Assembly (NCBI RefSeq): GCF_028330985.1
Contig: NZ_JAQMUE010000041.1
Coordinates: 1-51,095, forward strand
Length of the DNA: 51,095 nt
Direction: 5' to 3'
Source of the DNA: Roseofilum reptotaenium CS-1145
Lineage (GTDB): Bacteria; Cyanobacteriota; Cyanobacteriia; Cyanobacteriales; Desertifilaceae
Positions 20,223-28,477 of this stretch are shown in pieces; within the stretch, counting starts at the first letter, position 1, and each line of letters opens with the position of its first letter. A program made the position numbers and the translations under genes. The notes under the pieces were generated by a model. The model was not told the origin of the DNA and did not search any database. It was given only the letters and a program-made list of their open reading frames with translations.

Positions 20223-20837
20223 CTATGAATTAACTCCACCTCTTAAAACTTGCACCACAGACAAAGTCCTATCTCCTGAAAATCCCTGCAAAAAGGGTGA
20301 CTCTAGCACTTCTTCTCCAGAAAACCCTCGCGACTCATACAACCCTTCGACTAGCACAAATACGGTTATTCGTTCTTCCATGGGATCGACAATCCAATAC
20401 TCGGAGATGCCCCTGGACTGATACTGTGAAAGCTTATACCGATAATCTCGGTTTGCGTTCTCTTTGCCTGGTGAAACCACTTCCACGACTAACTGAGGTG
20501 GAGACATCTCCAAGCTAACTGTGGAGCGACTTGCTCCTTGTAGGGACTGCGCTCCTTCTTCTGACAACACTAACAGATCGGGCACTCTAACTGTTGGCCG
20601 AAGTCCACTCACCACTACTTCCGTCTTCATCCTCAAATAGTGAGGTAAAATTCCAATCTGTAGGAAATACGCAAACAGAAACGATTCAATACGCTGATTG
20701 CGATCGCTCTCTGGAGGCATAACTACCAACTCCCCATCTTCTAACTGATATACCGTATCTGTGCCATCATCATAATTCAGAAACTCCTCTAGACTCATAC
20801 CCTTAAGCTCCTGCAAAGCTTCAAGTGCGACTACCAT
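20223..20837 (-). CDS. Uma2 family (DUF820) endonuclease-like protein
   Basis: A 204-residue Uma2-family protein, PD-(D/E)xK-like fold, abundant in multiple copies in cyanobacterial genomes. Visible core: YQLEDGELVVMPPESDRNQR, then VRVPDLLVLSEEG (acidic residue), LVVEVVSPGKENANRDYRYK (Glu and Lys of the nuclease-like site) and GISEYWIVDP. The site residues are kept. Many copies are thought to be domesticated or mobile; no partner gene is evident here. The ATG at 20837 fits the family start. Confidence 0.85.
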   Translation of the reverse strand: MVVALEALQELKGMSLEEFLNYDDGTDTVYQLEDGELVVMPPESDRNQRIESFLFAYFLQIGILPHYLRMKTEVVVSGLRPTVRVPDLLVLSEEGAQSLQGASRSTVSLEMSPPQLVVEVVSPGKENANRDYRYKLSQYQSRGISEYWIVDPMEERITVFVLVEGLYESRGFSGEEVLESPFLQGFSGDRTLSVVQVLRGGVNS

Positions 20838-20984: not shown

Positions 20985-22493
20985 TTACCAAAGTACTAAA
21001 TAGGGATCGTCTAAGGTTTGGTTAGAGGTGGCGAGAACTTGCTTAAATTGATTCATCACGATCGCTCTTTGTTCTGGATTGAGAGTATATAATCCAGTTC
21101 CTTGAGCAATAAATAGGGGTTGATTAAACTCTAATTGAGGACTCAGGTAAAGGCGATCTGATGTTTTCGGAAGTAGTCCAGGAGGAAGATTGCCTGCGAG
21201 CAGTTTGCGCAAGCGATCGCCACAAACTGCCGTATTAATCCCCCGTTGTTCTAACAAGGAGAAAATCTGCCCTTCGGCGATCGCCTCATTGGGGATTACC
21301 CTAAGCAATTCTAACAACAGAAAATAATCACTATATTGATGGCGTACTGTATTGAGAACTTGGGGATAGAGCGGTACATTCGCTAATCCATAAGCTACCC
21401 GACTACATTTAGGCGGTTGACCTTGTGGGGTACGGTCTTGAATAATTGCCGCGCTGGGTAGTTTTTGCCGTAACCAACGGGCGATCGCCACTAAAGATGC
21501 ACTCCCCCCCGTACACAAAGCCTGGCGTATTCCTTGAGGGGCGACTCCCGTCTTGATAAACAGGCGATTAATCTCCCGATTCAGGGCACGCAAAAAAGGC
21601 ACAAACACCTTCATCTCTAAATCGCGACGCTGAATAGTCCACTTTTGCTGCTTGAGGCGTACTGTAATCTGGTTTTGTGCCTGAAGTCTATGCTTAACCT
21701 CTCTGGCGATCGCCAATAACCCCTGACCCCAATCTGAACGTCCCAAATATTGGCTGAACTGATAACGGGTTTCTAAATCCACCTCTCCCACTTGGGGCAA
21801 CTTTATTCCCTGCTCTTGCTCTGATGAAGCAGATAATAAGGGATGATCCCCATTCAACAACAACTGAGCAATAATATCCTGATCGATCGCATCTCCCCCA
21901 TAAGCCAAAGATCCCAAATAGAAATTTTCCGACTTGAGTTGGGATTTGTTTAACGGAACATCCACCAGAGCGAACTCCGTCGTCGTTGCTCCCGAATCTA
22001 GAATTAATGTTGCGCCTTGCCATTGAGTACCCTGAGCCGTATCACGCAACTCTGATATGACTAAAGCAATTGGCTCCTCTAAGAACAGAATTTGGTGAGG
22101 CTGATCTACCCAACCTGTCCTTAAAATTGCCTCTCGCAGATTAAAGCGATAGGCATCACTCCAATGGGCCGGACAGCCCACAATTACCCCACTTAACTGA
22201 TTCCAAATCTCTTGGCCATACTGTTCTTGCTCATTCGCCATCCCTTGCAACTGGGCCACCATCTCCTCAATAATCGAGGCCCCATCGACCCCAGGTAAAC
22301 TCCAATCTAAGTAAAGTTTTAGAGACACCCCAACCTGGGTTCGCTGAGTGGGGAAACGCTCCCAGGGATAAAAACAGCGTGTTGAGTAATTGAGGAACAC
22401 GGCTGAGATGCCAGTCGTTCCCCAATCGATTCCTAGATACCACAGCGGATTTTGCCCATCAGAATGACTCTTCACACTTCTGCTCTCTTTCAT
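20985..22493 (-). CDS. Hsp70/actin-fold ATPase, partner of the acidic repeat protein
   Basis: A 502-residue protein of the Hsp70/actin ATPase superfamily. Phosphate-1 motif YLGIDWGTTGISAVF lies at 19-33, an LEEPIALVISEL stretch (138-149) takes the place of the Hsp70 NEPTAAA segment, phosphate-2 is LILDSGATTTEFALVD (163-178), and an adenosine-type motif CTGGSASLVAIARWL follows. The canonical Hsp70 peptide-binding domain is absent. The C-terminal region of about 110 residues is unlike DnaK and contains KTSDRLYLSPQLEF. It starts 8 bases after the stop of the 884-residue protein, so the two form an operon. The ATPase could act on, or be recruited by, the motif repeats of that protein (inference). 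Confidence 0.8.
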   Translation of the reverse strand: MKESRSVKSHSDGQNPLWYLGIDWGTTGISAVFLNYSTRCFYPWERFPTQRTQVGVSLKLYLDWSLPGVDGASIIEEMVAQLQGMANEQEQYGQEIWNQLSGVIVGCPAHWSDAYRFNLREAILRTGWVDQPHQILFLEEPIALVISELRDTAQGTQWQGATLILDSGATTTEFALVDVPLNKSQLKSENFYLGSLAYGGDAIDQDIIAQLLLNGDHPLLSASSEQEQGIKLPQVGEVDLETRYQFSQYLGRSDWGQGLLAIAREVKHRLQAQNQITVRLKQQKWTIQRRDLEMKVFVPFLRALNREINRLFIKTGVAPQGIRQALCTGGSASLVAIARWLRQKLPSAAIIQDRTPQGQPPKCSRVAYGLANVPLYPQVLNTVRHQYSDYFLLLELLRVIPNEAIAEGQIFSLLEQRGINTAVCGDRLRKLLAGNLPPGLLPKTSDRLYLSPQLEFNQPLFIAQGTGLYTLNPEQRAIVMNQFKQVLATSNQTLDDPYLVLW

Positions 22494-22501
22494 TCTCAGA
22501 A

Positions 22502-25156
22502 TTAATTCTTCTTCAAAGAATTCAATGGTGGCTCAGGATCATCATCATCTGCAAACCCTTCAAAGACATCATCTAGGCTCAAGGTTTCTTCTACAGTTGT
22601 CCCATCAGGTTGACTTGATGCCGGGAGGGGTTCATCGACATTTACCGTTTCTCCCCGCAAAAATCCTTCAAACATATTTTCTATCGTAGATGTGCCTTTT
22701 GGCGATCGCCCAGTGGATGGATCGATAGCATCCTTATCCCCCTGATTGTATTCCTCAAACACATTATCTACGGTAATGGATTTCGGCTCTTCAGTGTCTA
22801 AATTCTCAGACTCTTCCCCAAACACCGTATCGATGCTTAAAGACTCTGGCAAGTTGATACTGCTTTCATCTTCCCACAGACCGGTTAAATCTGCTGTTTC
22901 TTCCTCTGGAGTTGACTCCTGAAATGTAGGATCTTCTGGGAATCCTTCAAATAAACTATCTACTGTTACTCCAGGTTCAGAATTTTCTCGATCTTCAGGT
23001 TCTTCTTGTTCTGCCGAAGTCCCTGACTCAGGAGAAGTTAAAATTTCATTGAGGAAATTCTCCGTATTTATGGGAGCCTCTTCTTCATTCATGACGGTCT
23101 CTTCTTCAGGAGCAGAAATTGTAGAACTGGCGGGTTCTAAATTCCCAAAGAGATCCGTAACTTGCTCTTCTGGAACTGGCTCAGGAACGGGTAAAGTTCC
23201 CTCACCTTCGAGACTAAATAAATCCTGACTTAACTGTTCTAAGACTTCGCCTTGTAAATTTAACTGACTGACCTCCTGTGGTTCTTGGATCTCGGTGGGT
23301 AATAAGACTTCATCGGGAGAAGCAGAGATATAAAGATCTTCTGTGGCGTTTAAGGGGGTTTCGTCGGCCCAATGGGTTTCTAGGCTCTGTGATGTAATCT
23401 GAGGTGGTGAATCTTCTTCGCCAAATAACTCCATAAAAGTTTCTAGAGATACTGGATCTTCCACTTGGGAAGGAGCCGGAGCGCCTTCAAATAAATCTGA
23501 TTCTAGAACTGAAGAGGGTGAGGATAAGTCAGTTGCAGGGAATTCCTCTGCTGCTAAAGGTTCTTGTGGCTCGTCTGTTTGGGCTTCAACATCACCTAGT
23601 CCTTCAAATAAATCTGATTCTAGGGTTTCGGCGATCGCCTCTTCATCTACAGGTTGCTCCCCTTGTGCTTCTGGTGGCGCGATCGCTTCTACATCCAATT
23701 CTGGTTCAGGTTCTTCAGCAATTTCATCCACTTCTGCCTGTTCTGCAAACTCTTGCAGGGGATCATCAGATTCCCCCTCGTCTTCCCTTTCACCTGTTGT
23801 AAACCGATCGGAAGCAAACAGTGCATCATAAAATTCATCACCTTCCATTTCCTCTTCTAGGAGCTGATTGGCATCCGCTGATGGCTCGTTAGAGAGTTGA
23901 TCGATTTGATTCTCTTCAATCTCTGTAATTTCAACAATCTCTTCAACCTCTTCAAATTGTTCAAAAAACTCCAACCCGATCTCTTCATCAAGATCTACTA
24001 ACTCTTCTAATTCCTCTGTATCCTCATCATCTATGGATTCCGGTTCAAAGCTATCCTCTTCCTCCTCAACCTCTTGGGCTAACTCAACCGACTCGGTTAA
24101 ATGCTGGAGATCGCTAGGTTGGACAATAGGGCGATCGGGAGGATCTGAGGTTTGGGCATTTTGGGCTGCTCGATCGGTTTCAGGAGCGATCGCCGAAGGA
24201 TTCAGGGATTTCCCTCCACTTGGTGTTTCTAATGTTTCTCCCAAAGAGTCTTCAGAACGGCTTTGAATATAAGAGGATGCTTCTCGTCCCAACTGGGATG
24301 CTAACCGATTTACCAAGGCACTAAACATTACCTCGCCCTGTTGACCCAAGCTGTACATATGCTCAATGCCTTGAGTCATTGATTCACTGTAGCTTTGAAG
24401 ATTACTTTGCAGTGTCTCAAAAACCACATTGATCGAGGCATCTAGGGTTTTGAGTAGTTTATCTGATTGAGCTTGCAGCGCCCTCAATTGTTCAAGTCGT
24501 TCTTGGGGAGTCAACAGAGATTGATCGGTGCTACTATCCGCAGCCAGAATTGGATCGTGGGGTTCGCGGGACTGATATTGCAGAAATTCTACCTGCAAAT
24601 CGGCTAAATTTTGAGCTACCTGTTGGGTGAAACTTTCTGCACAGCGATCGATCAGAGTTTGGAAAAACTCAGTCATCATTTTCTGAGATTGACCCGACAT
24701 CGCATTCTTGCCACGCTGTTGATCCAGATATTGCAGCTCCTGGCGCATCTGTTCCCGCTGGTTTTGTAGGGCCGCAATTTCTTCTTGCAAGGGGATCAGA
24801 ATGCTCGATCGCAAATCTTGCACCACAGCTTGCACAATTTGTTGATTTGCCGAGTTCGGTGGTTCTAGTATCGGTTGGCGCTCTTGGGACAGATCCGCCC
24901 CCAGTAAAGAAAGACGACGGCGACTGGCAGGTGTCGAACGGCTTGAGGGAGGAAGTTGACCTTTAGCAGTAGGGCGCTGAGTTGGGGAAGGGGGTAAACT
25001 GCCTAAATACTCCCGAACCCGTCTTAAAACTCGACGTTGTTGGCTCACCTCTCCCGCCATCACCCAGGGAAGGCGAGACTGGGTTTTGGATAGCACACTA
25101 TCGATTTCTGTTATCAGTGCTTGACGCTGGTCAGTCTGAGGTGTCACAATCGTCAT
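22502..25156 (-). CDS. Large acidic coiled-coil protein with repeated FEGF-like motifs
   Basis: An 884-residue protein of no family I can name. Residues 1-90 are basic/Pro/Ser-rich, 100-300 are Gln-rich helices (LQEEIAALQNQREQMRQELQ) likely to form a coiled coil, and 350-884 are strongly acidic and probably disordered. Seven related motifs occur in the tail at about residues 512, 551, 731, 774, 795, 824 and 860: LESDLFEG twice, TVDSLFEGF, SIDTVFGEE, TVDNVFEEY, TIENMFEGF and SLDDVFEGF, roughly [VIL]-[DE]-x-[VLM]-F-E-[GE]-[FY]. Such linear motifs usually dock a partner. It lies upstream of the Hsp70-like gene with only 8 bases between. No signal peptide or membrane segment is seen. Confidence 0.75.
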   Translation of the reverse strand: MTIVTPQTDQRQALITEIDSVLSKTQSRLPWVMAGEVSQQRRVLRRVREYLGSLPPSPTQRPTAKGQLPPSSRSTPASRRRLSLLGADLSQERQPILEPPNSANQQIVQAVVQDLRSSILIPLQEEIAALQNQREQMRQELQYLDQQRGKNAMSGQSQKMMTEFFQTLIDRCAESFTQQVAQNLADLQVEFLQYQSREPHDPILAADSSTDQSLLTPQERLEQLRALQAQSDKLLKTLDASINVVFETLQSNLQSYSESMTQGIEHMYSLGQQGEVMFSALVNRLASQLGREASSYIQSRSEDSLGETLETPSGGKSLNPSAIAPETDRAAQNAQTSDPPDRPIVQPSDLQHLTESVELAQEVEEEEDSFEPESIDDEDTEELEELVDLDEEIGLEFFEQFEEVEEIVEITEIEENQIDQLSNEPSADANQLLEEEMEGDEFYDALFASDRFTTGEREDEGESDDPLQEFAEQAEVDEIAEEPEPELDVEAIAPPEAQGEQPVDEEAIAETLESDLFEGLGDVEAQTDEPQEPLAAEEFPATDLSSPSSVLESDLFEGAPAPSQVEDPVSLETFMELFGEEDSPPQITSQSLETHWADETPLNATEDLYISASPDEVLLPTEIQEPQEVSQLNLQGEVLEQLSQDLFSLEGEGTLPVPEPVPEEQVTDLFGNLEPASSTISAPEEETVMNEEEAPINTENFLNEILTSPESGTSAEQEEPEDRENSEPGVTVDSLFEGFPEDPTFQESTPEEETADLTGLWEDESSINLPESLSIDTVFGEESENLDTEEPKSITVDNVFEEYNQGDKDAIDPSTGRSPKGTSTIENMFEGFLRGETVNVDEPLPASSQPDGTTVEETLSLDDVFEGFADDDDPEPPLNSLKKN

Positions 25157-25392: not shown

Positions 25393-25424
25393 CATTTTTA
25401 ATTTTTAATTTTTAATTTTTAATT
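25393..25424. repeat. Heptamer tandem repeat TTTTTAA
   Basis: About four copies of the heptamer TTTTTAA stand directly upstream of the Crp-type gene. Similar AT heptamers occur at 4754-4767 and 38603-38645. They are typical short tandem repeats of cyanobacterial intergenic DNA. Confidence 0.7.
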
Positions 25425-25436
25425 GATATTACCCCT

Positions 25437-26144
25437 ATGGTAGAACGACACAAGTCCCGTGGTGAATTGAATCAGCGTGAACTGATTAAGTCAGCGCCCT
25501 TTTTTGAAGGGTTACCGGAGGAGATTGTTGAACGGACGACGGCGCAAGTGGTGGTGCGAGAACATCCTTCTAACCAGGTCATCCTATTGGAAAATGATTG
25601 GGGTAGCTCGGTTTATTTTATTTTGGAAGGATGGGTTAAGATCCGCACTTATAATTTAGATGGTAAAGAGGTTACCCTCAATATTATTGGTAAGGGGGAG
25701 TTATTTGGAGAAATGGCTCCCCTCGAAGAGGTGCCACGCTCTACTGATGTGATTACCCTCGCCCCAACCACGATTGGCAATATGCCCGCTAGTGATTTTG
25801 TTAACTTGATTCATACGGAACCAAAGGCGGGTATCCGGTTGGCCCAATTGATGGCACGGCGCTTACGACAAGTCAACCGACGGTTACGACTACGGGAGTC
25901 TGATAGTACCTCCCGTGTAGCGGATATCCTCTTGTTTTTGGCTGATGGTCAAGGAACGAAAACGGCTGAGGGGGTAGAAATTCCCAATCTCCCCCATCGG
26001 GAATTAAGTAGTTTGAGTGGATTAGCGCGTGAAACGGTTACCAGAGTTTTAAGTAAATTGGAAAAGAAAAAGTTGATTGTGCGCCCCGATCGCGATACTC
26101 TTTGTATTCCAGATTTGGGTGCTTTAGAGCGCCTGATGGTTTGA
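25437..26144 (+). CDS. Crp/Fnr-family transcription regulator with cAMP-type binding pocket
   Basis: A 235-residue regulator with an N-terminal cyclic-nucleotide domain (20-140) and a C-terminal winged helix (155-230). The pocket reads GKGELFGEMAPLEEVPRST, keeping the glutamate (E92) and the Arg-Ser pair (R101, S102) that in E. coli CRP contact cAMP; cAMP binding is therefore plausible. The recognition helix is in LSSLSGLARETVTRVLSKLE. It resembles cyanobacterial cAMP receptor proteins rather than NtcA, whose effector loop differs. The gene is divergent from the acidic-protein operon and 31 bases ahead of the DUF2232 gene. No clear CRP palindrome is seen in the 280-base upstream gap. Confidence 0.87.
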   Translation: MVERHKSRGELNQRELIKSAPFFEGLPEEIVERTTAQVVVREHPSNQVILLENDWGSSVYFILEGWVKIRTYNLDGKEVTLNIIGKGELFGEMAPLEEVPRSTDVITLAPTTIGNMPASDFVNLIHTEPKAGIRLAQLMARRLRQVNRRLRLRESDSTSRVADILLFLADGQGTKTAEGVEIPNLPHRELSSLSGLARETVTRVLSKLEKKKLIVRPDRDTLCIPDLGALERLMV

Positions 26145-26175: not shown

Positions 26176-26820
26176 ATGGGTAATCAGAAGCCGGAGAGTC
26201 AAGTTAATCTGACCTTACCTCTAGTAGAATCAGCGTTTTTGGCAAGTACGTCTAGTCTGATTTGGTTGGTGAATTATTATTTTCCACCCGGGCCATTATT
26301 GCGGATCTTTTTTCCCGTACCGATCGCCTTGGCCTATTTGCGTTGGGGCAGTCGCAATGCTTGGATGACTATGACGGTAACGGGTTTGCTGTTAACCGTT
26401 TTAATGGGACCAACCCGCAGTATCCTGTTTCTGATTCCCTTTGGACTGTTGGGAGTGCAGTTGGGGATGATGTGGAAGCGGGGAGCAAGTTGGTTGGTGT
26501 CTATTGGTTTAGGAACGCTGTTGGGAGCGATCGGATTTTTCTTCAAAATTTGGTTGGTGTCCATTCTCCTGGGTGAGGATTTATGGCTGTATCTGATGGC
26601 ACAGGTGACCAGCTTGATCGATTGGATATTCCTGAAGTTGGGATTATTGGCCGAGCCGGATATCACGATCGTACAGGCGATCGCCGTAGTCATGATTTTA
26701 GTCAATAATTTGATCTATTTGTTCGTTGTCCATTTGGTCTCTAGTTTGCTTCTCGAAAAGTTGGGTAACCCCATTCCCTTGCCTCCCGCTTGGGTGGAAA
26801 TTCTGTTAGATCGGGAATAG
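26176..26820 (+). CDS. DUF2232 membrane protein
   Basis: A 214-residue integral membrane protein of the DUF2232 type. Hydrophobic segments cover about 18-38, 42-55, 62-78, 80-98, 105-130, 140-160 and 168-195, giving six to seven spans. The family resembles S-components of ECF vitamin transporters in size and topology, but no function is established. The gene follows the Crp-type regulator closely and precedes the CobT-like gene, so a link to corrinoid or cofactor uptake is possible but only contextual. Its stop TAG lies in the first unit of a GGGAATA tandem repeat. Confidence 0.8.
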   Translation: MGNQKPESQVNLTLPLVESAFLASTSSLIWLVNYYFPPGPLLRIFFPVPIALAYLRWGSRNAWMTMTVTGLLLTVLMGPTRSILFLIPFGLLGVQLGMMWKRGASWLVSIGLGTLLGAIGFFFKIWLVSILLGEDLWLYLMAQVTSLIDWIFLKLGLLAEPDITIVQAIAVVMILVNNLIYLFVVHLVSSLLLEKLGNPIPLPPAWVEILLDRE

Positions 26821-28090: not shown

Positions 28091-28477
28091 CTATAATTGA
28101 ATCCGCTTAGACAGTAATTGCTCCTCTAGAGCAGCAATGCGATTATAAGCAGCGGTCAGTTGTGCAGTTAAGCGCTGCACTTGCAGTTCAGGAGATAAAT
28201 ATGCATCTGACCGGGATTCAGATATCTCACGACGGTTATCATAATCATCATCAACTAATACATCTTTATGATCCCAAATGGGGAGATCGGATAACTCATG
28301 AGTATAGGAATGATTACTAGTACCCCGTTCTGGCAGATGAGTCTCTTCTGCGGGGAGATGGCTCGACCCAGGTTGAGATTCTAGCAAAGAGAATTTAGAA
28401 TTAAGCCGTTCAATCGCATGGGACATGCTTTCTATTTTTTCCATCAGCATCATAATTTGGGTTTCCAAAATTTCCAT
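28091..28477 (-). CDS. Small coiled-coil protein, 128 residues
   Basis: No named family. Residues 1-33 (METQ-type helix with METQIMMLMEKIESM-like heptads) and 97-125 (VQRLTAQLTAAYNRIAALEE) are predicted coiled coils by eye. The middle, 35-90, is acidic and polar and probably flexible. The protein lacks a signal peptide or membrane segment. Cyanobacteria often have short proteins of this type; a scaffolding role is only a guess. It is convergent with the CobT-like gene and divergent from the solute-binding protein gene. Confidence 0.6.
   Translation of the reverse strand: MEILETQIMMLMEKIESMSHAIERLNSKFSLLESQPGSSHLPAEETHLPERGTSNHSYTHELSDLPIWDHKDVLVDDDYDNRREISESRSDAYLSPELQVQRLTAQLTAAYNRIAALEEQLLSKRIQL

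Follow-up and report, generated by a model that had tools for sequence, protein, structure and literature searches.

A predicted Hsp70-type ATPase and a giant acidic scaffold protein form a widespread module of cyanobacteria

Using a combination of genome surveys, motif statistics and structure prediction, we find that two adjacent genes of Roseofilum reptotaenium CS-1145, encoding a large acidic protein (the scaffold, or 'BIG') and an ATPase of predicted Hsp70-type fold, make up a real and widespread cyanobacterial module. The window, by which we mean the whole stretch of DNA analysed, is one entire contig of 51,095 nucleotides from a cyanobacterial genome of 5.67 Mb, whose closest named relatives by ATPase identity are UBA2566, an uncultured Cyanobacteria bacterium (94%), and Roseofilum (75 and 70%). 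Both open reading frames (ORFs), of 502 and 884 amino acids (aa), are on the minus strand, and the gap of 8 bases that separates them is as originally noted. We propose that the pair, whose architecture and coupling can be read directly from genomes and whose ATPase fold is predicted, would act on a presumed partner as a multivalent scaffold that an ATP-binding Hsp70-like switch opens and closes, and we put the probability of this reading at about 0.5. The parts of the two proteins are as follows:

20985..22493, minus strand: ATPase, 502 aa, with a predicted Hsp70-type nucleotide-binding domain (residues ~17-373) and a family-specific C-terminal domain (~375-502)
20988..21371, minus strand: ATPase C-terminal domain, residues 375-502
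22502..25156, minus strand: scaffold protein ('BIG'), 884 aa
24992..25156, minus strand: scaffold head, residues 1-55, the portion retained in minimal head-ATPase fusions
24257..24859, minus strand: scaffold Gln-rich coiled-coil-like region, residues 100-300, common to EamA-fused paralogues
22505..24256, minus strand: scaffold acidic tail, residues 301-884

Profiles of the scaffold and of the ATPase, run over the same 292 cyanobacterial genomes, place both in 65 genomes, the scaffold only in 4, the ATPase only in 6 and neither in 217, so that the search for co-occurring pairs suggested with the original prediction finds the pair to be widespread. The 69 scaffold genomes are counted from 74 with matches, leaving out G051, G054, G118, G235 and G239, where the head is missing from the match, and keeping G193 and G282 though their match begins at model position 108; the 71 ATPase genomes are those at E<=1e-10, a looser E<=1e-3 giving 73 by the addition of G197 and G241. 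A one-pattern scan of 84,980 species confirmed 111 relatives, and the 80 of these that were kept all bear cyanobacterial titles. Neither protein reaches a Pfam or NCBIfam cut-off, the PADLOC models of anti-phage defence match neither (0 families at E<=0.1), and no plasmid copies were found.

The two proteins are repeatedly encoded as one. Among 120 loci, a set that includes some genomes twice (e.g. L034 and L096) and does not amount to 120 species, 62 hold split neighbours, 44 a fused gene and 14 no scaffold by the first profile, nine of these 14 beginning within 1.2 kb of a contig end; in 54 of 63 split ORF pairs the spacing is -11 to 194 bases. A tree of 101 ATPases requires 16 switches between the fused and the split state, at least 11 of them forced by supported branches, and removal of nine doubtful rows (overlapping or distant ORFs) leaves 14 changes, at least 9 of them forced. 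This tree is a quick one with long branches, a few assembly frameshifts may count as changes, and six states were set by hand (L034, L096, L097 and L106 as split, L044 and L062 as fused). We take such recurrent gene fusion as strong evidence that scaffold and ATPase act jointly. The break point also varies: in L106 the head stands alone beside a tail-ATPase protein, in L097 the tail is divided, in L034 and L096 the tail is carried on the ATPase, and in G118, one of the six ATPase-only genomes, the tail again sits on the ATPase with a 232-aa ORF just upstream that starts like the head. L064 is a reduced form. L044 (6528-8471) and L062 (6123-8063) are naturally occurring minimal forms in which the head runs straight into the ATPase and the acidic tail is missing, and L057-L059 are short head-ATPase fusions that likewise have no such tail. 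From the moving split point in L106 and L097, head, tail and ATPase appear to be three modules of a single machine.

Residue composition bears out the basic head, Gln-rich coiled coil and acidic tail that had been read from the scaffold sequence: there are 15 K/R against 8 D/E in residues 1-100 and 21 Gln in residues 101-200, and the 100-residue blocks that begin at residue 301 (the last has 84) each hold 21-39 D/E and 0-6 K/R. The tail carries the following elements:

23801..23833, minus strand: YxxLF element FYDALFASDRF, residues 442-452
23597..23620, minus strand: ESDLFEGL motif
23480..23503, minus strand: ESDLFEGA motif
23414..23437, minus strand: FMELFGEE motif
23291..23332, minus strand: single-copy conserved element YISASPDEVLLPTE, residues 609-622
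23204..23260, minus strand: LxxLxxDLxxLE element, residues 633-651
23207..23230, minus strand: SQDLFSLE motif, overlapping the LxxLxxDLxxLE element
23138..23161, minus strand: VTDLFGNL motif
22940..22963, minus strand: VDSLFEGF motif (strict)
22811..22834, minus strand: IDTVFGEE motif
22748..22771, minus strand: VDNVFEEY motif (strict)
22661..22684, minus strand: IENMFEGF motif (strict)
22553..22576, minus strand: LDDVFEGF motif (strict)

The strict pattern [VIL][DE]x[VLM]FE[GE][FY], once counted at seven copies, occurs only four times (residues 732, 796, 825, 861); over 5000 shuffled versions of the tail the mean count is 0.00. Relaxing the pattern to a core of [VLIM]F[EGS] with G, E, L or N next gives 10 copies in the window tail, and this core together with an upstream hydrophobic residue is found 6 times against 0.27 in shuffles. 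All ten motif Phe recur unchanged in UBA2566 (L072), Roseofilum acuticapitatum (L073) and R. halophilum (L074), where identity to the window is 96, 82 and 84% in the motif octamers and 91, 54 and 50% in the remaining tail, so that the motifs are conserved above the acidic background in these three relatives. Despite fewer strict copies, the motif signal is stronger than the original prediction had claimed; that prediction had staked itself on the pair recurring elsewhere and on its motifs rising above acidic low-complexity sequence, and both were found.

In the wider family we counted motifs over a non-redundant set of 77 tails, each 100 residues or longer, drawn from 106 with four tails under 30 residues and near-duplicates left out. 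For the generalised motif [DENST][LVIM]F[GESADN] we count 280 occurrences where 75.5 are expected, with 37 of the 77 tails individually enriched (p<0.05) and 7 devoid of any copy; five permuted control patterns occur 57, 141, 85, 57 and 145 times against 74-79 expected. DLF (159 against 23 expected) and LFG (95 against 6.5) are strongly represented, the DLFG form being commoner here than in the window. More specific elements accompany the repeats: the pattern [AS][SA]P[DEQK]ExL[LI], whose window version is ASPDEVLLP, is present as one copy each in 37 of the 77 tails against 0.12 expected, with Pro next in 22 of the 37, and an LxxLxxDLxxLE-type pattern and YxxL[FL] occur in 42 and 45 tails, respectively (both counts without shuffle control), Y..LF alone being found 44 times against 1.2 expected. 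Tail length runs from under 30 to 1643 residues, and some lineages lack the tail, as might be expected were it a fast-evolving charged linker or anti-aggregation spacer whose motifs are remnants of hydrophobic spacing, with head and ATPase as the working unit. That 40 of the 77 tails are not individually enriched, and that two of the five permuted patterns are also nearly twofold enriched, points in the same direction, and the latter means that part of the motif excess reflects general acidic-hydrophobic alternation. A mere spacer, however, sits poorly with ten Phe kept throughout the Roseofilum group while the remaining tail is 50-54% identical in two of its three relatives, or with a single-copy element so far above expectation, and we regard this explanation as unlikely, though it survives best of the alternatives.

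An AlphaFold2 model of the ATPase, built on an alignment of 54 homologues, has a mean predicted local distance difference test score (pLDDT) of 84.7 and a predicted template modelling score (pTM) of 0.86. It agrees with the earlier call of an ATPase fold lacking the Hsp70 substrate domain and points to an Hsp70-type nucleotide-binding domain: at E<=0.001 Foldseek gives 504 matches in the PDB, of which the 50 listed are all Hsp70-family entries by title, and the best are a chain of the ribosome-associated complex (RAC; E 1.8e-14), DnaK (E 7.4e-14) and BiP. The expectation of 'actin-like' filament behaviour fared less well, since the closest folds belong to Hsp70 nucleotide-binding domains and a second Foldseek list has MreB only at rank 47. 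The C-terminal peptide-binding beta-sandwich and lid are absent from the model, in which residues 375-502 form mostly helices and a single short hairpin. This domain, in which Y387, D389, F391-L393, E395-L396, G418 and P437 are invariant over 54 rows, is possibly winged-helix-like, an assignment that is unproven; profile searches gave no PDB or Pfam match above chance level, and the chance-level matches to the MarR-type TcaR (E=0.75) and, in single members, to MerR and Fe_dep_repress were set aside. At the level of sequence the resemblance to Hsp70 is faint. Pfam HSP70 (PF00012) does not match the window ATPase up to E=1, the protein is not among the 6 places that this family matches in its own genome, and only 6 of the 54 homologues are matched at E<=0.01 (best 2.7e-5); PilM_2 reaches 15.7 bits (cut-off 27) on the window ATPase and matches 19 of 54 homologues weakly (best 5.8e-5), and HscA reaches 20 of the 620 bits needed. 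Compared with most homologues, ATPases of the window clade lack about 100 residues, the missing stretch falling between the P1 motif and residue ~100. The same genome also encodes another Hsp70-like protein of 532 aa (L169 802-2400, C31), besides three full-length HSP70 matches.

To map the nucleotide site, one own-genome DnaK (L167, one of three) served as hhalign template, giving an alignment that is collinear over residues 102-372 and weak (probability 1%, E 0.056). The P1 Asp is present in all 51 rows with a letter (3 gaps), the P2 Gly in 52 of 54, the adenosine-motif Gly in 54 of 54 and position E139 in 52 of 54. By this same weak alignment the putative P2 Asp is kept in just 9 of 54 homologues, the window ATPase among them, and is replaced in the other 45 (Ser 19, Asn 18, His 5, others 3), which leads us to suggest that most homologues may bind ATP without hydrolysing it. 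These features also bear on whether the pair is a specialised chaperone, an active ATPase whose substrate domain is replaced by the C-terminal domain and for which the scaffold acts like a J-protein or presents clients. The Hsp70 fold, the P1 and adenosine motifs and the putative P2 Asp of the window protein are in keeping with such a role, and the accessible text of PMC9239167 describes a DnaK1/DnaJ3 system that couples pili to polysaccharide in Nostoc punctiforme. We nevertheless think a chaperone improbable, rather more so than a spacer, given the replacement of the putative P2 Asp in 45 of 54 homologues, a window protein that Pfam HSP70 misses, a model with no beta-sandwich substrate domain, and a scaffold in which no J-domain or other Pfam domain was found (up to E=1 a Pfam scan gives only APP_E2 at 0.24 and DYH2-5-8_CC at 0.72). 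A cytoskeletal pair, that is a polymerising actin-superfamily protein with a coiled-coil acidic cofactor comparable to FcmB/FcmC or FtsA/FtsZ-tail, is equally improbable: the superfamily fold shared by actin and Hsp70, the MreB match, the weak PilM_2 matches and the existence of such pairs in filamentous cyanobacteria (FcmB/FcmC, as described in the accessible part of PMC12645912) speak for it, but Hsp70 folds outrank actins in Foldseek and filament packing would probably be hindered by the tail of 200-1600 residues to which the protein is often fused.

Which protein the repeated motifs serve is informed by natural variants. The original prediction envisaged a scaffold with docking sites loaded by the ATPase; the coupling of the pair, the conservation of the motifs and the Hsp70-type fold support its outline, and docking of the ATPase by the repeated motifs is the part for which they give no support. 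A small scaffold of 429 aa (G289; L159 4996-6285) ends in four tandem DLF in a genome where no ATPase was found, and, conversely, the tail-less L044, L062 and L057-L059 retain the ATPase. Another small scaffold, of 404 aa (G185; L160 4737-5951), has one NLF and again no ATPase found in its genome; the G229 scaffold shows DLFG, DDIF and DDFF forms, and in G197, with one unplaced ATPase match at 3.7e-4 only, no motif was seen in the scaffold. That scaffolds can keep motifs without an ATPase suggests that it is some third party, and not the ATPase itself, that the repeats serve. In a model of the natural tail-ATPase protein of L096 (893 aa), the ATPase folds well and the tail lies mostly below pLDDT 50, with the LxxLxxDLxxLE helix at 68-76 and a DAELDAIF segment at about 70.

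The coiled coil links the scaffold to a second protein family. Without the head, it recurs elsewhere as the N-terminus of EamA-type membrane proteins, and over the 292 genomes 59 have both this EamA-coiled-coil protein and the scaffold, 10 the scaffold only, 2 the EamA protein only and 221 neither; the 61 EamA-coiled-coil genomes are counted from 67, leaving out G000, G213, G143, G268, G185 and G289, where the match was the scaffold itself or a short remnant. These counts suggest that scaffold and EamA proteins may pair at the membrane, and shared lineage ancestry could give the same numbers. In the window the EamA-type transporter (PF00892; 47755-49050, plus strand) has its coiled coil reduced to a remnant of about 60 residues, and this genome is among the 10. 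Matches of the coiled coil to Max protein (best E=1.1e-4) were taken as coiled-coil similarity only.

Together, these observations lead us to posit a mechanism in which scaffold and ATPase would work as a single functional module in cyanobacteria. Through its head and coiled coil the scaffold may self-assemble or attach, and its acidic, probably disordered tail would display DLF/VFEGF-type elements, each binding the partner weakly, alongside the single-copy ASPDExLL element and the LxxLxxDLxxLE helix. The ATPase, with its own C-terminal domain instead of a peptide-binding domain, would be an ATP-occupancy switch and not a folding chaperone, docking on the tail or on a tail-bound partner to open or close the scaffold. 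Repeated weak motifs would thus gather the partner, and the ATP-occupied switch would set their valency or accessibility. A bolder version, which we offer as speculation and consider unlikely, is a class of Hsp70-derived switches in which an external, motif-bearing disordered scaffold functionally replaces the substrate-binding domain, ATP binding without hydrolysis sets the valency of a cytoplasmic assembly (possibly a condensate), and the EamA coiled coil provides a membrane tie.

Several observations weigh against the gated scaffold. The genome counts are phylogenetically non-independent, and five of the ATPase-only genomes (G095, G097, G235, G237, G253) hold just a reduced ATPase-like frame of 400-417 residues. 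Scaffold homologues without the ATPase occur in G185, G229, G289 and G197, and together with the tail-less fusions they show that neither half of the proposed coupling is obligatory. In the tails, to the enrichment of permuted patterns is added the absence of any [DE][LVIMF]F copy from 16 of the 77, and the best-conserved tail element (ASPEENLLP in L096) lies below pLDDT 50 in the L096 model. The structural likeness to Hsp70 is partial, with Foldseek TM-scores by query length of just 0.42-0.50 and identities of 13-18% over the 50 best matches listed. As to the switch, the placement of the P2 Asp depends on the weak single-template alignment described above, and since the window protein keeps this residue, the proposed loss of hydrolysis does not extend to it.

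The surroundings of the pair offer a tentative view of the process it might serve. Two neighbours lie on the scaffold side of the window:

25437..26144, plus strand: divergent Crp/Fnr regulator (PF00027, PF13545)
26176..26820, plus strand: DUF2232 membrane protein (PF09991), a neighbour for which we claim no membership in the system

Among 124 loci, the families of the divergent Crp/Fnr regulator (90), DUF2232 (76) and a CobT-like protein (56) recur, nearly always on the side of the scaffold. In the region downstream of the ATPase, which exceeds 1.5 kb in 110 of the 124 loci, other genomes carry a sugar transferase in 38 loci (37 on the same strand, 150-631 bases away) and a CDP-alcohol phosphatidyltransferase in 40. 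The sugar transferase in about one-third of loci, together with the coiled coil shared with EamA proteins, leads us weakly to favour, as a guess, envelope or polysaccharide work beside the membrane. Directly after the ATPase the window itself has a Uma2 family (PF05685) gene (20223-20837, minus strand), at the place taken by the sugar transferase in about one-third of the other loci. A 128-aa protein with no match in Pfam (28091-28477, minus strand) belongs to a family that is present on the scaffold side in 38 of 124 loci, and a short AT-rich tandem repeat of ATTTTTA units (25394-25424) lies just upstream of the Crp/Fnr gene. Control of the pair by this regulator was considered and set aside, no Crp-like palindrome being found in 68 non-redundant (of 86) intergenic stretches between scaffold and regulator; what rises above shuffles there is A/T-rich, such as AAAAT-5-ATTTT in 7 stretches, along with AGCTC-7-GAGCT in 4 of 68. 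A tentative identification of the regulator as DevH was likewise dropped: the accessible part of PMC7699953 names alr3952 and allows no test.

The module, seen only among cyanobacteria as judged by the 80 of 111 relatives that were kept, apparently represents an Hsp70-type domain recruited away from chaperoning, and its motifs, single-copy elements and altered nucleotide site yield concrete predictions. If the gating is true, a nucleotide-controlled scaffold would join the ways in which bacteria organise their cytoplasm. A precedent for its scaffold half is CsoS2 of carboxysomes, a disordered protein that gains avidity from many copies of a short motif; compared by description only, it is alike as a disordered repeated-motif scaffold and differs in having no attached switch protein. 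In PilM-PilN and FtsA-FtsZ, an ATP-binding actin-fold adaptor holds a short peptide of its partner, an idea that could carry over to the present pair; the weak PilM_2 matches are a further point in common. PilN-like docking of the NLLP element was nonetheless rejected: the own-genome PilN begins MYGLDINFLKDR, unlike the tail ASPDEVLLP, and the ATPase falls short of the PilM_2 cut-off.

FcmB-FcmC of Nostoc punctiforme, compared by description only, is likewise a two-gene system of filamentous cyanobacteria, of the actin superfamily, with FcmB derived from a plasmid partitioning system; this described origin makes FcmB probably not the ATPase studied here, and the accessible part of the source describes no fusion to a giant acidic tail (PMC12645912). 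StkA of Myxococcus, a DnaK/Hsp70 homologue that is encoded upstream of stkB and stkC and regulates exopolysaccharide (accessible part of PMC4319316), resembles the ATPase, by description only, as an Hsp70-like regulator encoded with dedicated neighbours. In the open literature searched, including the accessible parts of PMC7002697 and PMC9239167, no paper evidently concerns the pair, and no name for it was found. With the DnaK/Hsp70 chaperones proper, the ATPase shares the fold of the nucleotide-binding domain and a weak collinear alignment to one own-genome DnaK; unlike them, it has a family-specific C-terminal domain, no substrate domain in its model and no Pfam HSP70 match. The closest parallel in structure is Ssz1 of the ribosome-associated complex: RAC chains, which we take to be Ssz1 as the listing does not name the chain, hold Foldseek ranks 1 and 3, and the Ssz1 ATPase (4gni) holds rank 40. 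Ssz1, as described in the accessible text of PMC7083937, binds ATP without hydrolysis and has a partner that bears an LP motif; in the present family the putative P2 Asp is missing from most homologues, and an LL(P) element is found in many tails. In contrast to our pair, Ssz1 retains a substrate domain and works with a J-protein partner; neither was found here, and identity is 13% over the match. By these comparisons the pair is not a wholly new kind of system and belongs to the non-canonical Hsp70 theme.

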